From Muribaculaceae bacterium (GTDB lineage: Bacteria > Bacteroidota > Bacteroidia > Bacteroidales > Muribaculaceae), in the NCBI GenBank assembly GCA_017964485.1, contig JAGCRW010000064.1, positions 1-57,998 on the forward strand: a stretch of DNA of 57,998 nt. Reading direction: 5' to 3'. Every line of letters begins with the position of its first letter. Position 1 is the first letter of the stretch. This document shows, piece after piece, positions 38,228-44,720 of this stretch. The position numbers and the translations under genes were made by a program. The notes under the pieces were generated by a model. That model was not told the origin of the DNA, ran no database searches, and saw only the letters and a program-made list of their open reading frames with translations.

Positions 38228-39367
38228 ATGAAGTATCTTAAATATATAGTGCTGGGACTGATTGTTGCTTTTGCGACTGCTGGAGCCACAGCTCAAGTAG
38301 TGAAGAAGAACGATGGTGACCGTCGTGACAAAAAGGACGAGAGCGCGGTGAAGGTCTCTGACCGCCAGCAGGCTTTCTATGAGCAGCGCGAGCCCAGCGA
38401 GGCCGACCTGCAATGGTCAAAAGTAGTGTATCGCATATTGGATCTCACCAAAGGCAAGAATCCCGCCCTCTATTATCCAGAGGAGCCTAACGAGGACGGC
38501 CAGAGTATGTTCTTCATCATCATGCGCCTGCTTGCTAACAACCAGATCAGCGCCTACGAGTATCTTGATGGACGCGAGATGTTCACCGACGAGTACAAGA
38601 TTAAGGTGGCCGAGTTGTTCGACCGTTTCCATGTGCTCTATAGCGAGGCAAAGGGTAGCACTGAGAAGAACCCCAAGTATGCCATTGAGGATGCCGATAT
38701 CCCTGGCAACGAGATTTTGAGTTACTACATCATTGAGAAGTGGGAGTTTGACACCCGCACCAACGCAATGCGCTGTCGTGTAGATGCCATTTGCCCAGTG
38801 CTCCACCGCGAGGATGGCTATGGCGGCGAGCCCATCAAGTTCCCTATGTTCTGGGTAAAACTCAACGATATCAGGCCATACATTGCCCAGCAGTATATCT
38901 TCACCGATGATGACAACAACCTCACTCGCTACAACCTCGACGACTTCTTCAAGCTCAATATGTATACTGGCGACATCTACAAGGTTAAAAACCTGCGCAA
39001 CCAATCGCTAATGCAGCTCTATCCCGAGCCTGAAGCGCTCAAGCACGCTCAAGACTCAATCGAGGAGCGTCTGCATCGCTTTGACAAGAACCTGTGGGCA
39101 CCAACACGTGAGGAACTCCAAGCGATGGCCGAAGCAAAGTGTAAACTTGAGGCAGAGCAAAGAGGCGAGACCCTTGAGGAAGGTGAGAGCGAAGGCGCTA
39201 CTGTCAAGGAAGAAAAGAAGGACTCTGGTAAGAGCGTGAAGACCAAGCGTGGCAGTAGCAATGACAGCAAAGACAACAAGAAAAAGACCACCAAGAAGAA
39301 AGTCCAAAAAGCCAAACAGAGCAGCAACCAAGGCGCAGGCCGCTCAGTGCGCAACCGCAAACGCTAG
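38228..39367 (+). CDS. gldN: PorN/GldN T9SS ring protein with Lys-rich tail
   Basis: This is a 379-residue protein. The start is the ATG at 38228 (MKYLKYIVLGLIVAFATAGA, a signal peptide); an upstream in-frame codon at 38204 lies in the intergenic region. The core matches GldN: SDLQWSKVVYRILDL-like (here ADLQWSKVVYRILDL), YYPEEPNEDGQSMF, YYIIEKWEFDTRT and MYTGDIYKVKNLRNQSLM. The last 90 residues or so are an extra low-complexity region rich in Lys, Ser and Glu (KKDSGKSVKTKRGSSNDSKD). It is the last gene of the T9SS operon. Confidence 0.94.
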   Translation: MKYLKYIVLGLIVAFATAGATAQVVKKNDGDRRDKKDESAVKVSDRQQAFYEQREPSEADLQWSKVVYRILDLTKGKNPALYYPEEPNEDGQSMFFIIMRLLANNQISAYEYLDGREMFTDEYKIKVAELFDRFHVLYSEAKGSTEKNPKYAIEDADIPGNEILSYYIIEKWEFDTRTNAMRCRVDAICPVLHREDGYGGEPIKFPMFWVKLNDIRPYIAQQYIFTDDDNNLTRYNLDDFFKLNMYTGDIYKVKNLRNQSLMQLYPEPEALKHAQDSIEERLHRFDKNLWAPTREELQAMAEAKCKLEAEQRGETLEEGESEGATVKEEKKDSGKSVKTKRGSSNDSKDNKKKTTKKKVQKAKQSSNQGAGRSVRNRKR

Positions 39368-39399
39368 TTTGGATTAAGGGTTTTCTGTAATCAATATCA

Positions 39400-39430
39400 C
39401 ATGCACACATTAATGTGTGCATGTTTTTTT
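39400..39430 (+). terminator. Terminator of the T9SS operon
   Basis: A 24-nt perfect palindrome (catgcacacatt / aatgtgtgcatg) at 39400-39423 is followed by a run of T. It starts 33 nt after the gldN stop. Confidence 0.87.
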
Positions 39431-39513: not shown

Positions 39514-39582
39514 TGTTGCGATTTTTCTGCGAAAAAAGTTGTCGAAATTTTTGAATTTTTTTTGCCTCGATAATATATTTTG
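39514..39582 (+). promoter_or_regulatory. Repeated AT-rich promoter element, copy E1
   Basis: The 49-nt core at 39514-39562 (with TTTTTCTGCG, AAAAAAGTTGTCGAAA and TTTTTGAATTTTTTT) matches copy E2 (39918-39966) at 46 of 49 positions. TTTG at 39550-39553 is followed after 20 nt by TATATTTTG at 39574-39582, which fits the promoter layout. It lies upstream of the gene starting at 39628. Confidence 0.6.
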
Positions 39583-39627
39583 TATATCGAAAAAAAATTG
39601 TTTCACTTTTTAAAATCATACAGTATT

Positions 39628-39915
39628 ATGCCAATGCCATTCCGACTAAGAAACAACACAAAGATTACTGAAATGCCTAAACCTGAAAAGTTCATTGATG
39701 AGCCATTAGATGAAGTCCTTTCTCAGCTTGAGAACGAGTATAGGTTCCATTTATTGAAAGATGTTCAAGGTGTGAGTTGTTATCGACTGATTACAATGAA
39801 AAAACATTGTCACATATTAGAAATGATTGCTCACGTGCCTGAATGCACCGACAAATGGATTGTAGTTGATGCTTTTCCGCTTCGCGAAGAGAATACCGAA
39901 GATGTTGATTGTTAG
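39628..39915 (+). CDS. Unknown 95-residue protein
   Basis: The start is the ATG at 39628 (MPMPFRLRNNTKITEMPKP); the upstream part of the frame runs through the promoter element. The sequence is an ordinary mixed alpha/beta protein (EPLDEVLSQLENEYRFHLL, VSCYRLITMKKH) with no signal peptide, membrane segment or recognised motif. It has its own E1 promoter and is followed by E2. It has no recognised family, but codon use is coherent. Confidence 0.6.
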   Translation: MPMPFRLRNNTKITEMPKPEKFIDEPLDEVLSQLENEYRFHLLKDVQGVSCYRLITMKKHCHILEMIAHVPECTDKWIVVDAFPLREENTEDVDC

Positions 39916-39917
39916 TG

Positions 39918-39989
39918 TATTGCAATTTTTCTGCAAAAAAAGTTGTCGAAATTTTTGAATTTTTTTGACATTCTATCTATTTATATTAG
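39918..39989 (+). promoter_or_regulatory. Repeated AT-rich promoter element, copy E2
   Basis: The 49-nt core (39918-39966) is the near-identical second copy of E1, 404 nt downstream. It is followed by TATATTAG at 39982-39989. The -33/-7 spacing is less regular than in the other copies (TTTG at 39954-39957, 24 nt away). It lies upstream of the 55-codon gene at 40020. Confidence 0.55.
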
Positions 39990-40019
39990 TGAAAAGTATA
40001 ACTTAAAAAAATATCGACA

Positions 40020-40187
40020 ATGAAGACAATGACAACCATCCGTACAAGTTCCTCTACTCTGTTCCAAGTAATGCGCAGCTACCTTAGCCACAAGCGTGTT
40101 ACAAAATCGACCAACTTCAGTGATGACATCTATAGCATCACCATCTACGATCTTGATAGTGAGCAGACCGACAAGTTGCTCGCATAA
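40020..40187 (+). CDS. Small protein of 55 residues
   Basis: An ATG-to-TAA frame of 55 codons starts with MKTMTTIRTSSSTLFQVM, contains SHKRVTKSTNFSDDIYSI and ends TDKLLA. It lies directly behind promoter element E2 (31 nt from TATATTAG). It has ordinary codon use and a typical soluble, mixed-charge composition, and is probably a real small gene. Function is unknown. It is followed by a hairpin at 40242-40265. Confidence 0.6.
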   Translation: MKTMTTIRTSSSTLFQVMRSYLSHKRVTKSTNFSDDIYSITIYDLDSEQTDKLLA

Positions 40188-40241
40188 CTCACACGCCGCA
40201 TGCACTTCTTGCCTGCCTCGCAATCCGTCGCTGCATAGCCC

Positions 40242-40265
40242 AGAATCGGTCAAAAGACCGATTCT
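40242..40265. terminator. Perfect hairpin without T-tract
   Basis: A 10-bp perfect stem (agaatcggtc / gaccgattct) has an AAAA loop. The downstream sequence is gctcaaaaaaat, so there is no U-tract in either direction. It lies between the 55-codon gene and the next gene and may stabilise the transcript or end it inefficiently. Confidence 0.5.
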
Positions 40266-40292
40266 GCTCAAAAAAATAATTCAAAACCAGTG

Positions 40293-40320
40293 GAATTTTG
40301 CCTGATTTTTATTATATTTG
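40293..40320 (+). promoter_or_regulatory. Promoter-like element before the 255-residue gene
   Basis: GAATTTTGCC and TATATTTG (40313-40320) give a TAnnTTTG element 40 nt before the ATG at 40361. The segment resembles the downstream part of E1 (GAATTTTTTTTGCC, TATATTTTG). A -33 TTTG at 20 nt is not present. Confidence 0.45.
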
Positions 40321-40360
40321 CAAAACTAAAGAATAATAAACCAATAAAACAAAAACTACC

Positions 40361-41128
40361 ATGGGAGATTTTGTTGATTTTTATTTGACGCCCACAAAAA
40401 AAGAAGAAATGGTGCGTCTGGTTGACTATGTGACCGAAGCCACACGAAAACACAGTCTTGAGTTATTAGGTGAGGATATTACCATCAAGGATTACGATTA
40501 TTTTGACCCATATGGTTTTAAGGTTCTTGAAACTTTTTTCCACTGGCGGGATCACACTTCTAATAAGAAGCATCTTGACATTGATGCTCTTGAGAACGAT
40601 ATAGCTACCCATTTTCCTGATGTGGAATTCACCAGCGAAATGGTCATCAACAACAATACTCTTTACCATGCAATTGGCTGCAATGGGAAATGGGAGAAAC
40701 TGAAGGAGCCAATGGATTTATATGTGTTCTTCGACAATGAAGAGCAGTTAAACTTGATAGCCAGCAACCGCGACACCTTTGCCTCAATTGATGGTTTTGA
40801 TGAAGATGTGACAGATAACAAAACCGAGTGTTTTGTGAAATTCGGATTCGGAAATTTGCCAGAGACAAAGTTCAAAAATGCGCTTGAGGCTATCATTGCC
40901 ACGATTGGGCAACTATTGCCTGGAAGTGAGTTGCCATGCATTATGACGAAGTGGTATGACCAAGGTGATTCTTTTTCTGAAAAAGCAACCATAAAGGACG
41001 GCAAAGCGGAGTGGCAGGAAATCACTAGTGATGAATATGTTAACCAACTCCAGCCAATAGTTGAACGCGATGAGGAGTATTATGAAATAATAATGAAACG
41101 AGATTATATAAACGTTTTGTTCAAATAA
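40361..41128 (+). CDS. Unknown 255-residue cytoplasmic protein
   Basis: This protein has no signal peptide or membrane segment. It has alpha/beta composition, with TPTKKEEMVRLVDYVTEATR at the start, then YDYFDPYGFKVLETFFHWRD and KHLDIDALENDIATHFPDVE. Acidic residues are abundant. No family was recognised. The next gene, a deoxynucleotidase-like HAD protein, starts 15 nt downstream, so the two form an operon. Confidence 0.6.
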   Translation: MGDFVDFYLTPTKKEEMVRLVDYVTEATRKHSLELLGEDITIKDYDYFDPYGFKVLETFFHWRDHTSNKKHLDIDALENDIATHFPDVEFTSEMVINNNTLYHAIGCNGKWEKLKEPMDLYVFFDNEEQLNLIASNRDTFASIDGFDEDVTDNKTECFVKFGFGNLPETKFKNALEAIIATIGQLLPGSELPCIMTKWYDQGDSFSEKATIKDGKAEWQEITSDEYVNQLQPIVERDEEYYEIIMKRDYINVLFK

Positions 41129-41143
41129 TTTAATACGACAACT

Positions 41144-41635
41144 ATGACCAAGATGATTATTTATGTCGATATGGACAATGTCCTCGTAGATTTTCAAAGC
41201 GGGCTTAACCGAGTGCCCGAGGAGATTAAAAAGCAGTATGCCGACGACGGAAACGGCAAGTGCATTTACGATGAGATTCCAGGACTTTTCGCACTAATGG
41301 ATCCCATGCCTGGTGCCATTGAGGCTATGCAGGAACTGAGCAAGCATTTCGACCTATACATCCTCTCCACTGCACCGTGGCTAAACCCCAGCGCATGGAG
41401 CGACAAAGTGGAGTGGGTGCAACGCTACTTTGGTGCTGGTAAGGACTCTATCTTCTATAAGCGCCTCATTATCTCCCACCACAAGGACTTAAACCATGGA
41501 AACTATCTGATTGATGACCGTTGGAAGAATGGCGCTAGTCATTTCAAAGGTGAGTGGATTGAGTTCGGTTCGTCGCAGTACCCCGATTGGCCAACTGTGG
41601 TCAAGTATCTGCTTAATAAGATACCAAAGCCCTAA
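41144..41635 (+). CDS. 5'(3')-deoxyribonucleotidase-like HAD protein
   Basis: This is a 163-residue protein. The N-terminal DMDNVLVDF is the HAD catalytic motif (D-x-D). LSTAPWLNPSAWSDKVEWVQ and LIDDRWKNGASHF supply the other HAD motifs in the arrangement seen in the NT5C/deoxyribonucleotidase-type family. It should remove phosphate from a (deoxy)nucleoside monophosphate. It is probably cotranscribed with the unknown gene 15 nt upstream. Confidence 0.82.
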   Translation: MTKMIIYVDMDNVLVDFQSGLNRVPEEIKKQYADDGNGKCIYDEIPGLFALMDPMPGAIEAMQELSKHFDLYILSTAPWLNPSAWSDKVEWVQRYFGAGKDSIFYKRLIISHHKDLNHGNYLIDDRWKNGASHFKGEWIEFGSSQYPDWPTVVKYLLNKIPKP

Positions 41636-41690
41636 AAAGTTTCTGTGAAATTTGAATTTTTGAACAAAAATTGCTATATTAATGAGTGTA
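41636..41690 (+). promoter_or_regulatory. AT-rich promoter element, copy E3
   Basis: TTTG at 41651-41654 and TATATTAATG starting at 41675 are spaced by exactly 20 nt. The flank TTTCTGTGAAATTTGAATTT shares the GAATTTTTGAA part of E1/E2. It begins right after the stop of the HAD gene and precedes the gene at 41704. Confidence 0.55.
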
Positions 41691-41703
41691 AAAAATAATA
41701 ATT

Positions 41704-42177
41704 ATGAGAATTCCAATGCCTTATGACTGTTTAAAGAAACCGTACGATCAACTCAATGCCGATGAGCTTGACATCCTGTCACGTTACATAAACTCATGGT
41801 ACGTTGATAATTGCGATTCAATTTTGAAGGAACCACCTTTCAAAGGATGGCTTGAGGAGCGTAGAGACGTTGATACTGTAATCCGCGCTTTCATGAAAGA
41901 TTATAGTATGCCTGACGAGAATCTTGAGCCAGTAAAGGCCATGTTCCTCCAAATGGTAGATGAGAAACAATTTGTCAGGAAAATCGACAAATGGTATTTT
42001 GATAATGCTGCTATTGGGCATGAGAATATGCGTTTTTCATTTTTCAACCATAAAGAGGCGCCAGTTGAGGCTGTCGATGCTATGATGAATGAGTTGGGGT
42101 TTAAAGAAGACCTCCGCGAAAAAGCCGCTGATTTGTTGTGGCGATGCTTCAGAGAGGATTTTGAGATGTGGTGCTGA
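41704..42177 (+). CDS. Unknown 157-residue protein
   Basis: This is a soluble, mostly alpha-helical, acidic protein (YDQLNADELDILSRYINSW, LEPVKAMFLQMVDEKQFV, KEDLREKAADLLWRCF). It has no signal peptide, membrane segment or recognised domain. It is preceded by its own E3 element and followed by E4, so it is probably transcribed alone. Confidence 0.6.
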   Translation: MRIPMPYDCLKKPYDQLNADELDILSRYINSWYVDNCDSILKEPPFKGWLEERRDVDTVIRAFMKDYSMPDENLEPVKAMFLQMVDEKQFVRKIDKWYFDNAAIGHENMRFSFFNHKEAPVEAVDAMMNELGFKEDLREKAADLLWRCFREDFEMWC

Positions 42178-42185
42178 CAATAGCC

Positions 42186-42258
42186 GAAATCAGTTTTTCT
42201 TGCATAAAAAAACAGGCTGAAAAATTTGCATTTTTCAAAGAAAATTAGTATATTAGTG
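42186..42258 (+). promoter_or_regulatory. AT-rich promoter element, copy E4
   Basis: TTTG at 42225-42228 and TATATTAG at 42249-42256 are spaced by exactly 20 nt. The preceding TTTTTCTTGCATAAAAAA resembles the TTTTTCTGCAAAAAAA part of E2. It lies upstream of the gene at 42281. Confidence 0.55.
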
Positions 42259-42280
42259 GAGTGTATTAATAATTTATATT

Positions 42281-43204
42281 ATGATGAAGGAAAAGATTAC
42301 GAATTTAGACATCAATTTTTTAGACGAAGAACTAGAGGAATGCTTGTGCGACCCTCCATTTTTTGAGAGGCCCGAGGAGCCCATCACTGAGATTGACTCA
42401 TTTGTGCATGGACATTTCGCGCTTGGCGATAGGGTGTATTATATACGCCCTTATAATATGTATAAGATTAAGTGTGGCACTATCAAGCAGTTCATTTGGA
42501 AAGAAGATAAAGGTTTATTCCCTTATTATAAGATAGTGCTTGACAATGGAGACGTGGTGGAGGATCATGAGCTATTCCACACTCTGGCCGAGGCTCGCGC
42601 TGAAGTGATTGAAGATCTCAAATGCTCTTTAATTAACAGCCGCAACTTCCTTGTTGGCTTGCAGCGTGAGATTGCCATCAACGAGCGACGACTTGCTACG
42701 CTTCAGAGCTATGATGAGAAGATAAAAGAACAGAAAATAATTAACGCAATGAAACAAGAAGAAAAACAGAACCTTGAGACCTTGCCACAGGTGAGTGGTC
42801 AAAGGCCAGTTAAACTGCTAATGTCGCTATATCTTGGCGATGACCTGCCCATCAGTGACAACAGCGGATGGGGCTATGGTAAGGATGATGCTGTGGTTAT
42901 TGCCACCGAGAATCCGATGGAAGGAGTTGGCTTCGAGTACCAATTTGTTGAGCAGCGTGCCCAGCTAGAGGTGCTTGAACTTGATGAACTGCATCCAGAG
43001 AAGAACCACTATTTCGAGAGTTTTCGCCGTCTGCGTCAAAGCATTAAGATAATTGGCGATGTGCACTATGATATCATTGAAGCCGAGGTCACAGTGACCG
43101 ATGACGATGACAACGAGACAAAATACCGCACACAGTGCTGGTTTAACGTGGATAAACTCTTTGAAGGCTATTCAAAGATTAGTGAAAAATACAAGAAGGA
43201 CTGA
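42281..43204 (+). CDS. Unknown 307-residue protein with a coiled coil
   Basis: The N-terminus is acidic (NFLDEELEECLCDPPFFERP). A small beta domain at about 45-105 (FALGDRVYYIRPY, GTIKQFIWKEDKGLFPYYKI, VLDNGDVVEDHELF) looks like an SH3- or Tudor-type fold. A helical coiled-coil region lies at about 108-165 (NFLVGLQREIAINERRLATL), and a second beta-rich C-terminal part follows. No family was recognised, and there is no signal or membrane segment. Only E4 links it to its neighbours. Confidence 0.6.
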   Translation: MMKEKITNLDINFLDEELEECLCDPPFFERPEEPITEIDSFVHGHFALGDRVYYIRPYNMYKIKCGTIKQFIWKEDKGLFPYYKIVLDNGDVVEDHELFHTLAEARAEVIEDLKCSLINSRNFLVGLQREIAINERRLATLQSYDEKIKEQKIINAMKQEEKQNLETLPQVSGQRPVKLLMSLYLGDDLPISDNSGWGYGKDDAVVIATENPMEGVGFEYQFVEQRAQLEVLELDELHPEKNHYFESFRRLRQSIKIIGDVHYDIIEAEVTVTDDDDNETKYRTQCWFNVDKLFEGYSKISEKYKKD

Positions 43205-43367: not shown

Positions 43368-44720
43368 ATGAGACGAGGATTAATTAGCATAGTAGTTGCG
43401 CTCACAACGCTTGTGGCGATGGCGCAAGTGGAGTTTATACAGAATGGCTTAAAATATACCGCCCTTGACGATAATAGCGTGAAGGTACGTAAGATAGATG
43501 ATAACCATTTGCCTAAAGGCAAGCTCGTTATTCCTACCTATGTAACACATGATGGCGTCACCTACACTGTTACAACATTAGGTGGCTGGGCATTTTTCGG
43601 ATGTGAGGATATCACAGAGGTGGAGTTGCCCGCCACCTTGACAAAGATTGACATTTGGGCATTTTGCAACTGCAAGAAACTCAAGGGAATCGATATCCCC
43701 TCCAGCGTGAAGGAGATTGGCTACAGCGCATTTGAGAACTGCGAGAGTTTCACGTCTTTCACCTTTCCTGAGGGTATAGAGCTGGTGTCTGACCGACTTC
43801 TGCAGGAGTGCTACAATCTCACCGAGGTGAATTTGCCCGAAGGTGTTGTAAAAATTGATGACTGTGCTTTCAGCGACTGCAAATCGCTTGAGAGCATCAC
43901 GCTGCCACAGTCGGTGAAGTATATAGACAACAGTGCCTTTGCTTATTGCAATAACCTGAAACACATCAGTCTGCCTAAGGGACTGAAAAAATTAGGCCGC
44001 AATGTGTTCTCAAGCTGCGTTTCTCTTGTCGAGATTGAATTGCCCGAGGGTATTACCGAAATCGGCGATAATGTCTTCAACAACTGTCGCGCTCTTGAGC
44101 AGGTTACCTTGCCAGCGTCGCTCAGTTGGCTGAAAAGCAACCCGTTCTCATCGTGTGGCGCATTGAAGGAGTATAAGGTGGCAGAAGGCAGTGAGTACTT
44201 CGCCGTGCAAGATGGCATACTTTTCTCTAAAGACATGACTCGCCTCATTGCTTGCCCCATAAGCAAAGATTTGGGCGACTACATCGTGCCGGCTACCGTT
44301 AAGGAGATTGCCTCAGATGCTTTCTACGGATGCAGCAGGCTCACTAGCATCACTATGTCTGATGTCACCGATATTGGTGACAACGCTTTCAATGGTTGCC
44401 ACAACCTTGTCACTGTAGATTTCGGTTCAAAGCTCGAGACTTTGGGCAAAGCCGCTTTCTATAGCAATTCAAAGATTGAGAACATAGTCCTGCCCGACTC
44501 GTTCAAGCACATGGATATGATAAACTTTGAATTCTGCGGCAATCTCAAGACTGTGAGCTTGAGTGAGGAACTGAGCAAGCGTGAGCAAGACTTTAACAAT
44601 CTGTCGTTTAACTTTAACTCCAGCGACCTGCGATTTATCATCCGCATGCCCGACGGCACTACCAAGACTCTGAAGCACGAAGAAATCAACGACATGAAGA
44701 AATACTTCAGGGAAAAATAA
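43368..44720 (+). CDS. BspA-like leucine-rich repeat protein
   Basis: This is a 450-residue protein with a signal peptide (MRRGLISIVVALTTLVAMAQ). From about residue 60 to 400 there are repeated LRR_5 units (WAFFGCEDITEVELPATLTK, AFENCESFTSFTFPEGIE, AFSDCKSLESITLPQSVK, AFAYCNNLKHISLPKGLK and more). BspA-type repeats often mediate adhesion or binding at the cell surface. No T9SS-like C-terminal domain or lipobox is visible, so its attachment to the cell is unclear. Confidence 0.88.
   Translation: MRRGLISIVVALTTLVAMAQVEFIQNGLKYTALDDNSVKVRKIDDNHLPKGKLVIPTYVTHDGVTYTVTTLGGWAFFGCEDITEVELPATLTKIDIWAFCNCKKLKGIDIPSSVKEIGYSAFENCESFTSFTFPEGIELVSDRLLQECYNLTEVNLPEGVVKIDDCAFSDCKSLESITLPQSVKYIDNSAFAYCNNLKHISLPKGLKKLGRNVFSSCVSLVEIELPEGITEIGDNVFNNCRALEQVTLPASLSWLKSNPFSSCGALKEYKVAEGSEYFAVQDGILFSKDMTRLIACPISKDLGDYIVPATVKEIASDAFYGCSRLTSITMSDVTDIGDNAFNGCHNLVTVDFGSKLETLGKAAFYSNSKIENIVLPDSFKHMDMINFEFCGNLKTVSLSEELSKREQDFNNLSFNFNSSDLRFIIRMPDGTTKTLKHEEINDMKKYFREK

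Follow-up and report, generated by a model that had tools for sequence, protein, structure and literature searches.

The stretch of DNA analysed here (the window; 57,998 nt, contig JAGCRW010000064.1 of the Muribaculaceae bacterium assembly GCA_017964485.1, indexed as G000:C5) belongs to a genome of 2.73 Mb. Six open reading frames (ORFs), all on the plus strand, form an island in it, which lies between a terminator-like hairpin 3' of porN and a leucine-rich repeat (LRR) gene, and four promoter-like elements (E1 to E4) precede the genes P1, P2, P5 and P6 (Table 1). The porN gene lies at the end of a type IX secretion system (T9SS) operon, in which gldK, gldL and gldM likewise scored above the NCBIfam cut-offs. 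A preliminary description of the sequence had placed six genes between the T9SS operon terminator and the LRR gene, five of them without a recognised family and one coding for a deoxynucleotidase-like HAD protein; the ORF positions agree with this account, and only the HAD protein matched a curated family (PF06941). For P1, P2, P3, P5 and P6, searches of Pfam, NCBIfam and PHROGs gave nothing near a cut-off or with E < 0.01, and the top match of these proteins in PADLOC (P5; E = 0.0016, 15 bits) was too weak for use.

Table 1. Features of the island and its flanks; coordinates are those of the window.
Feature	Coordinates	Strand	Remarks
porN/gldN	38228..39367	+	left flank, end of T9SS operon gldK-L-M-N; TIGR03523 193 bits (cut-off 85.9)
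Terminator-like hairpin	39399..39424		3' of porN
E1	39514..39583	+	promoter-like, before P1: A-tract, GTTG, TTTTTGAATTTTTTTT, TATATTTTG
P1, 95 aa	39628..39915	+	no known family; coordinates from ATG (longer frame in ORF list, TTG start at 39580)
E2	39918..39991	+	before P2: core as in E1, TATATTAGTG 24 nt after TTTG
P2, 55 aa	40020..40187	+	small-protein family; shortened by in-frame TAA
Inverted repeat	40242..40265		3' of P2
Ordinary-looking promoter	40296..40320	+	TATATTTG box, before P3 and HAD genes; found by reading; absent from matches of model R1 (see text)
P3, 255 aa	40361..41128	+	relatives among the 117 loci searched: window copies only
HAD-type 5'(3')-deoxyribonucleotidase (NT5C)	41144..41635	+	PF06941 59.5 bits; 15 nt after P3
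E3	41633..41696	+	before P5: TTTG-20-TATATTAATG
P5, 157 aa	41704..42177	+	no known family; 45% homologue in L112 (G061)
E4	42205..42266	+	before P6: TTTG-20-TATATTAGTG; weakest copy
P6, 307 aa	42281..43204	+	P6N (1-155) and P6C (156-307)
BspA-type LRR gene	43368..44720	+	right flank

The elements were compared by sequence and geometry. E1 and E2 share a core of 49 nt, for which the count of 46 identical positions given in the preliminary description was reproduced on recomputation (starts 39514 and 39918). When a 41-nt piece of this core was searched in the own genome with up to three mismatches, E1 and E2 were the only matches; E3 and E4 were the only matches to TTTGNATTTTT-N(5-14)-TATATTARTG. 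Exact GAATTTTTGAA was found in the window in E3 only, and exact TTTTTCTGCAAAAA in E2 only. The single arrangement that had been proposed for all four elements (TTTG, 20 nt, TATATT) applies to E1, E3 and E4 and not to E2, where the gap between TTTG and the box is 24 or 14 nt. The -7 boxes (listed as TATATTTT(G), TATATTAG, TATATTAA and TATATTAG) depart from the usual TAnnTTTG, as had been stated; none is identical to it, and they differ from it by one or two letters.

A sequence-only model of the element (R1) was built from 13 sites that precede, in other species, genes of the recurrent array described below; none of these sites was from the window. The own genome was scanned with R1 by scoring 150 of the 2273 first-look candidates, so that weak sites may be missed. 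E2 (35.1 bits), E3 (29.0 bits) and E1 (26.2 bits) took the first three places and the next match reached 14.8 bits. As a control for plain inheritance of one gene's promoter, a second model (R2) drew only on relatives, with eleven sites ahead of P2-family genes, and 150 of 2399 candidates were scored. E2 was again first (37.8 bits), followed by E1 (32.1 bits) and E3 (20.1 bits), which precede P1 and P5, and the strongest match outside the island had 14.8 bits. In 34 loci of relatives, R2 sites were also found before HAD, P1, LRR and P6N genes. E4 is counted as a copy of the element by its geometry and position alone.

Across 101 congeneric genomes, R1 returned 53 sites in 28 genomes (E <= 0.001, with stricter filters). 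With one site (on G091:C9) left out, 52 were examined, in the window and in stretches of relatives, and 44 of them precede P2, P6N (one broken), small LRR, HAD, P1, P5, AAA or F5 genes. Thirteen of the 52 had served to build R1; of the 39 that had not, 31 are located before array families. When 347 genomes of the family were searched (E <= 1e-4), 22 had R1 sites, 17 of them from the own genus. The five sites from outside the genus precede an AAA gene, 39% identical (G258, of another genus), short reading frames that begin with similar residues (G338 and G360) and, in the remaining two cases, other genes. The preliminary description had held that an element found before hundreds of unrelated genes would be just a common promoter; at the scores tested, the element is rare and tied to a recurring gene set.

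The P2 family was found in 21 of the 101 congeneric genomes, and relatives of P6 in 14 (the window's included). P6N and P6C, which are fused in the window, are separate genes in relatives. One gene order, (P6N)-P2-LRR-P2-AAA-HAD, is shared by six loci from six genomes: it is complete in L032, L033 and L035, and P6N is short (92 aa) in L100, broken in L097 and missing from L099. Array genes stand in another order in L030. An AAA gene lay within the fetched stretch in 20 of 25 P2 loci (duplicates L117-L120 omitted; several of the loci belong to a single genome). Contig C112 of the own genome carries AAA, SprT-like and P2-like genes, and an own-genome R1 match on contig C21, weak at 13.7 bits, precedes an AAA gene that is 46% identical to the array family. 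In L116 (RUG358, another Bacteroidales record) a P2-like gene, recognised by eye and by alignment, adjoins P6N; RUG in isolate names presumably denotes rumen genomes.

A porN homologue is present in 98 of the 101 congeneric genomes, and the region downstream of it was read in six near relatives. The LRR gene follows porN after about 150-195 nt, with the island absent, in three of these (G070, G030 and G079); in the others porN is followed by menA (G050), by one 124-aa gene and then menA (G076) or by a run of other genes (G045). In the sister genome G031, P1, P2, P6N, P6C (with a stop) and F5 adjoin the LRR gene. Its porN is on a different contig, where the next gene, recognised by eye, is DUF2779-like, and synteny across the left end is therefore not demonstrable there. 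Gain and loss of the genes together, an idea raised in the preliminary description, accords with the co-occurrence of the families in other species and with near relatives that have no island at this site.

Several further sequences were noted in the searched loci. Twelve own-genome R1 matches outside the array were read. Besides the weak one on C21, a second weak match (G000:C70:23505-23534) precedes a 62-aa protein, which has an 80% identical counterpart of 63 aa behind an R1 site in one other species (G014; L108, among the sites of the 52 that are not before a recognised array family); this family of 62-63 aa may also belong to the set. In L030, L031, L033 and L097, sigma-70-like proteins of 120-125 aa are encoded near array genes. 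A leader, CCGAAACGCT(CAC)TTGAAGGGAGTAGG, was found in slightly varying form ahead of LRR, HAD and other genes, in 17 distinct copies (L030-L033, L035, L097-L101, L105, L108, L114 and L189). It was rejected as a structured RNA, with no Rfam family in L033 and with covariation uninformative because the pairs are nearly invariant, and as a leader peptide, the frame being broken or shifted in some copies. A second leader, CCTCGCGATG..GG..AATC, ends 9-14 nt ahead of the start codon in eight genes; seven of these are in L027, on both strands, and one is in L115.

R1 sites upstream of rpoD were returned by the genus-wide search in G067 and G092. R1 was applied to 30 rpoD loci and gave sites in four (G092, G012, G063 and G033; 13.8-21.9 bits). 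Of these 30 loci, 28 have an ordinary TAnnTTTG box in the 150 nt ahead of rpoD, and in the four with an R1 site it sits between the element and the gene. The element was set aside as a driver of rpoD, since it is limited to a few close relatives. Two RpoD-like genes were seen close together on one contig in 23 of the 101 genomes, the second being 59-84% identical to the query.

P1 has a 47% homologue in G031 (L024), which likewise stands behind an element. P2 is truncated in the window by a single in-frame TAA (40185-40187), beyond which homologous codons continue to 40235; P2 proteins of relatives have about 68-83 aa, and those observed in complete form terminate in AA or AS. By our own reading, the P2 tail is taken to be degron-like and P6N to be SH3-like or coiled-coil. 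The inverted repeat 3' of P2 (AGAATCGGTC..GACCGATTCT) has similar counterparts, found by reading, after P2 in L024 and L026. No match was obtained for P6N in viral contigs, for P6 in phages and plasmids or for P2 in phages. The locus with the P5 homologue (L112) was picked up through its R1 site. P5 had no relative in the genome contigs searched, and the matches listed for it in 297 family genomes were itself and two weak ones (G061 is not among them and may lie outside this sample). The ratios of nonsynonymous to synonymous differences (pN/pS) were 0.19 for HAD, 0.34 for P6C, 0.37 for P6N and 0.40 for P5, with several pairs near saturation at synonymous sites.

The HAD protein scored well above the gathering score of PF06941 (24.8 bits). 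It gave matches in 72 phage records and none in viral contigs. It shares its domain with the NT5C deoxyribonucleotidases, including those of KVP40-like phages, and is 58.6% identical to a KVP40-like Vibrio phage deoxyribonucleotidase over 96% of the protein; unlike these enzymes, it is encoded in a bacterial array beside genes without a family, and its activity is a predicted one.

Defence-type genes were found beside several arrays of relatives: a C5 methylase gene with AAA and PDDEXK_7 genes (L026), AbiLi-like and ThsB-TIR genes (L028), PDDEXK_4 genes (L030 and L031) and an McrBC gene (L097). A tyrosine recombinase of the phage-integrase family is encoded beside two arrays (above the cut-off in L097; the copy in L099 is 69% identical to that of L097). 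PADLOC recognised no defence-type gene among the six of the window, and the scans with Pfam, NCBIfam, PADLOC and PHROGs gave no integrase among the island ORFs. With their accessory, reassorted genes and such neighbours, the arrays resemble defence islands and integron cassette arrays. They differ from both in that many cassettes here carry their own promoter, and from integron arrays in that the recombinase beside two of them is of the general phage-integrase family.

The AAA ATPase of L033 was nearest to the models of IetA (108.7 bits in PADLOC, 104.5 bits in NCBIfam), a likeness to the anti-phage system IetAS; by our own reading, the AAA protein may have a helix-turn-helix part. The NCBIfam score is, however, far under the cut-off of 510, and the window island has no AAA gene. 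IetAS requires its partner IetS, and the IetS protease is not among the named neighbours of the AAA genes, most neighbours being unscanned and the partner not systematically sought. The likeness of the HAD protein to a phage enzyme and the defence-type neighbours point, without proof, to defence and to exchange with phages. For the defence or stress role suggested in the preliminary description the evidence is indirect, in the form of defence-type genes beside some relatives' arrays, and no defence type was recognised among the six proteins of the window; we regard such a role for the array as possible, with the balance somewhat against it.

The element, its genome-wide rarity, its tie to certain families, the one gene order in six species and the island-free relatives are direct observations. 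The island is best supported as an accessory array with its own promoter variant, rather than as a set of genes behind a generic promoter. As judged from sequence, the six genes are probably the local, diverged form of an accessory array that undergoes recombination and is met repeatedly in this Bacteroidales genus. Many of its cassettes carry their own copy of the promoter variant, and they would be controlled, and act, jointly. On the same reading the array families probably comprise P2, P6N/P6C, small LRR and HAD, elsewhere also an AAA ATPase, a sigma-70 fragment and F5, with P1 and P5 rarer and the combinations varying by species.

The promoter variant would be laid out as an A-tract with GTTG, then TTTTTGAATTTTTTT, which holds TTTG at the usual -33 distance, and then TATATTA at -7. 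Since TTTG and the spacing are ordinary (PMC7366714), the primary sigma factor probably reads the element. Transcription by polymerase with this factor would start from the imperfect -7 box, the cassettes may be set together by a shared factor that acts on the conserved block further upstream, and the array products may act jointly, most likely in stress or phage defence. As regards the co-regulation that a shared promoter had suggested in the preliminary description, the element did prove to be shared, rare genome-wide and tied to recurring genes; the joint control itself we infer. A common promoter over a varying gene set hints at a shared, so far undescribed accessory system, and no published description of the array was found within the openly accessible literature searched. 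A more specific version is speculative and rather unlikely: a multi-gene system of rumen Bacteroidales in which the AAA ATPase, P2 with its degron-like tail, P6N, the small LRR protein, the phage-type deoxynucleotidase and the sigma-70 fragment would be co-induced through private copies of the promoter block and form a programme, against phages or for stress, by which DNA synthesis is limited.

Several observations weigh against reading the island as a recombining array with its own promoter variant. Eight of the 52 sites are not before a recognised array family, many sites are orthologues, and the site and locus counts are not independent, because loci were picked by P6, R1 or P2 matches and because of this orthology. 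P2 is often without the element, as no R1 site above 14.9 bits was found in 11 further loci with P2 from relatives or in two stretches of the own genome (six porN loci were included in the same search). Element likeness, for which 39 of 59 sites were used, was 0.56 between different families within a locus (27 pairs) and 0.54 between different loci and families (550 pairs). E4 had 14.4 bits under R1 (fifth in the own genome, at noise level) and 11.3 bits under R2 (twelfth, not separable from background), and the P3-HAD pair of the window is without an element. P1 is under weak constraint (pN/pS 0.69), which, with the truncation of P2, suggests that part of the window copy may be decaying.

Of three other explanations considered, two are held to be rather improbable. 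The genes may stand behind ordinary primary-sigma promoters in AT-rich gaps, with nothing shared beyond the -33 and -7 boxes and A/T runs, and with E1 and E2 alike through a recent local duplication. Promoters of the primary factor of Bacteroidota, sigma-ABfr, have TTTG near -33 and a -7 box TAnnTTTG (PMC7366714), and the elements resemble them in their TTTG near -33 and TA-rich -7 box, one or two letters off consensus; the background score of E4 and the many P2 genes elsewhere that lack the element fit this account. However, E1-E3 are picked out genome-wide by models that were derived from other species and from a single other family, and the 44 of 52 genus-wide sites lie before the same families. 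The elements also differ from those promoters in their -7 box (TATATTA or TATATTTTG) and in the conserved A-tract-GTTG-TTTTTGAATTTTTTT block, which occurs for the most part ahead of a single set of genes.

Similarly doubtful is the proposal that the element serves chiefly as a handle for recombination, or is a vestige of common cassette origin, in which short homologous boxes let genes swap and any co-regulation is incidental. Gene content does differ between loci, E1 and E2 have 46 of 49 positions in common, P6N and P6C are fused in the window, broken copies occur and the tyrosine recombinase stands beside two arrays; yet the likeness between elements of different families is scarcely greater within one locus than between loci, and the one order in six species argues against free shuffling. 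General gene conversion among the elements of one locus was rejected on the same likeness values. A regulon of a separate sigma factor, such as the alternative factor named in the preliminary description, is highly improbable: the -7 box is unlike the consensus and sigma-70-like proteins occur in some relatives' arrays, yet TTTG and the 20-nt spacing (three of four elements) are those of the primary factor (PMC7366714) with -7 boxes one or two letters off, no sigma-70-like protein is encoded in the window island, and the sole one scanned (L033) had Sigma70_r2 above the Pfam cut-off, region 1.2 below it and nothing else.

Read as an accessory array with its own promoter variant, the island links unknown gene families, from a group of bacteria common in gut and rumen, as members of one set through a shared control element and a conserved neighbourhood. 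The promoter model offers a handle for finding members by their control sequence and not by protein likeness, and the P5 homologue was found in this way. Were the array a defence or stress system, it would be one without a name in the libraries searched.

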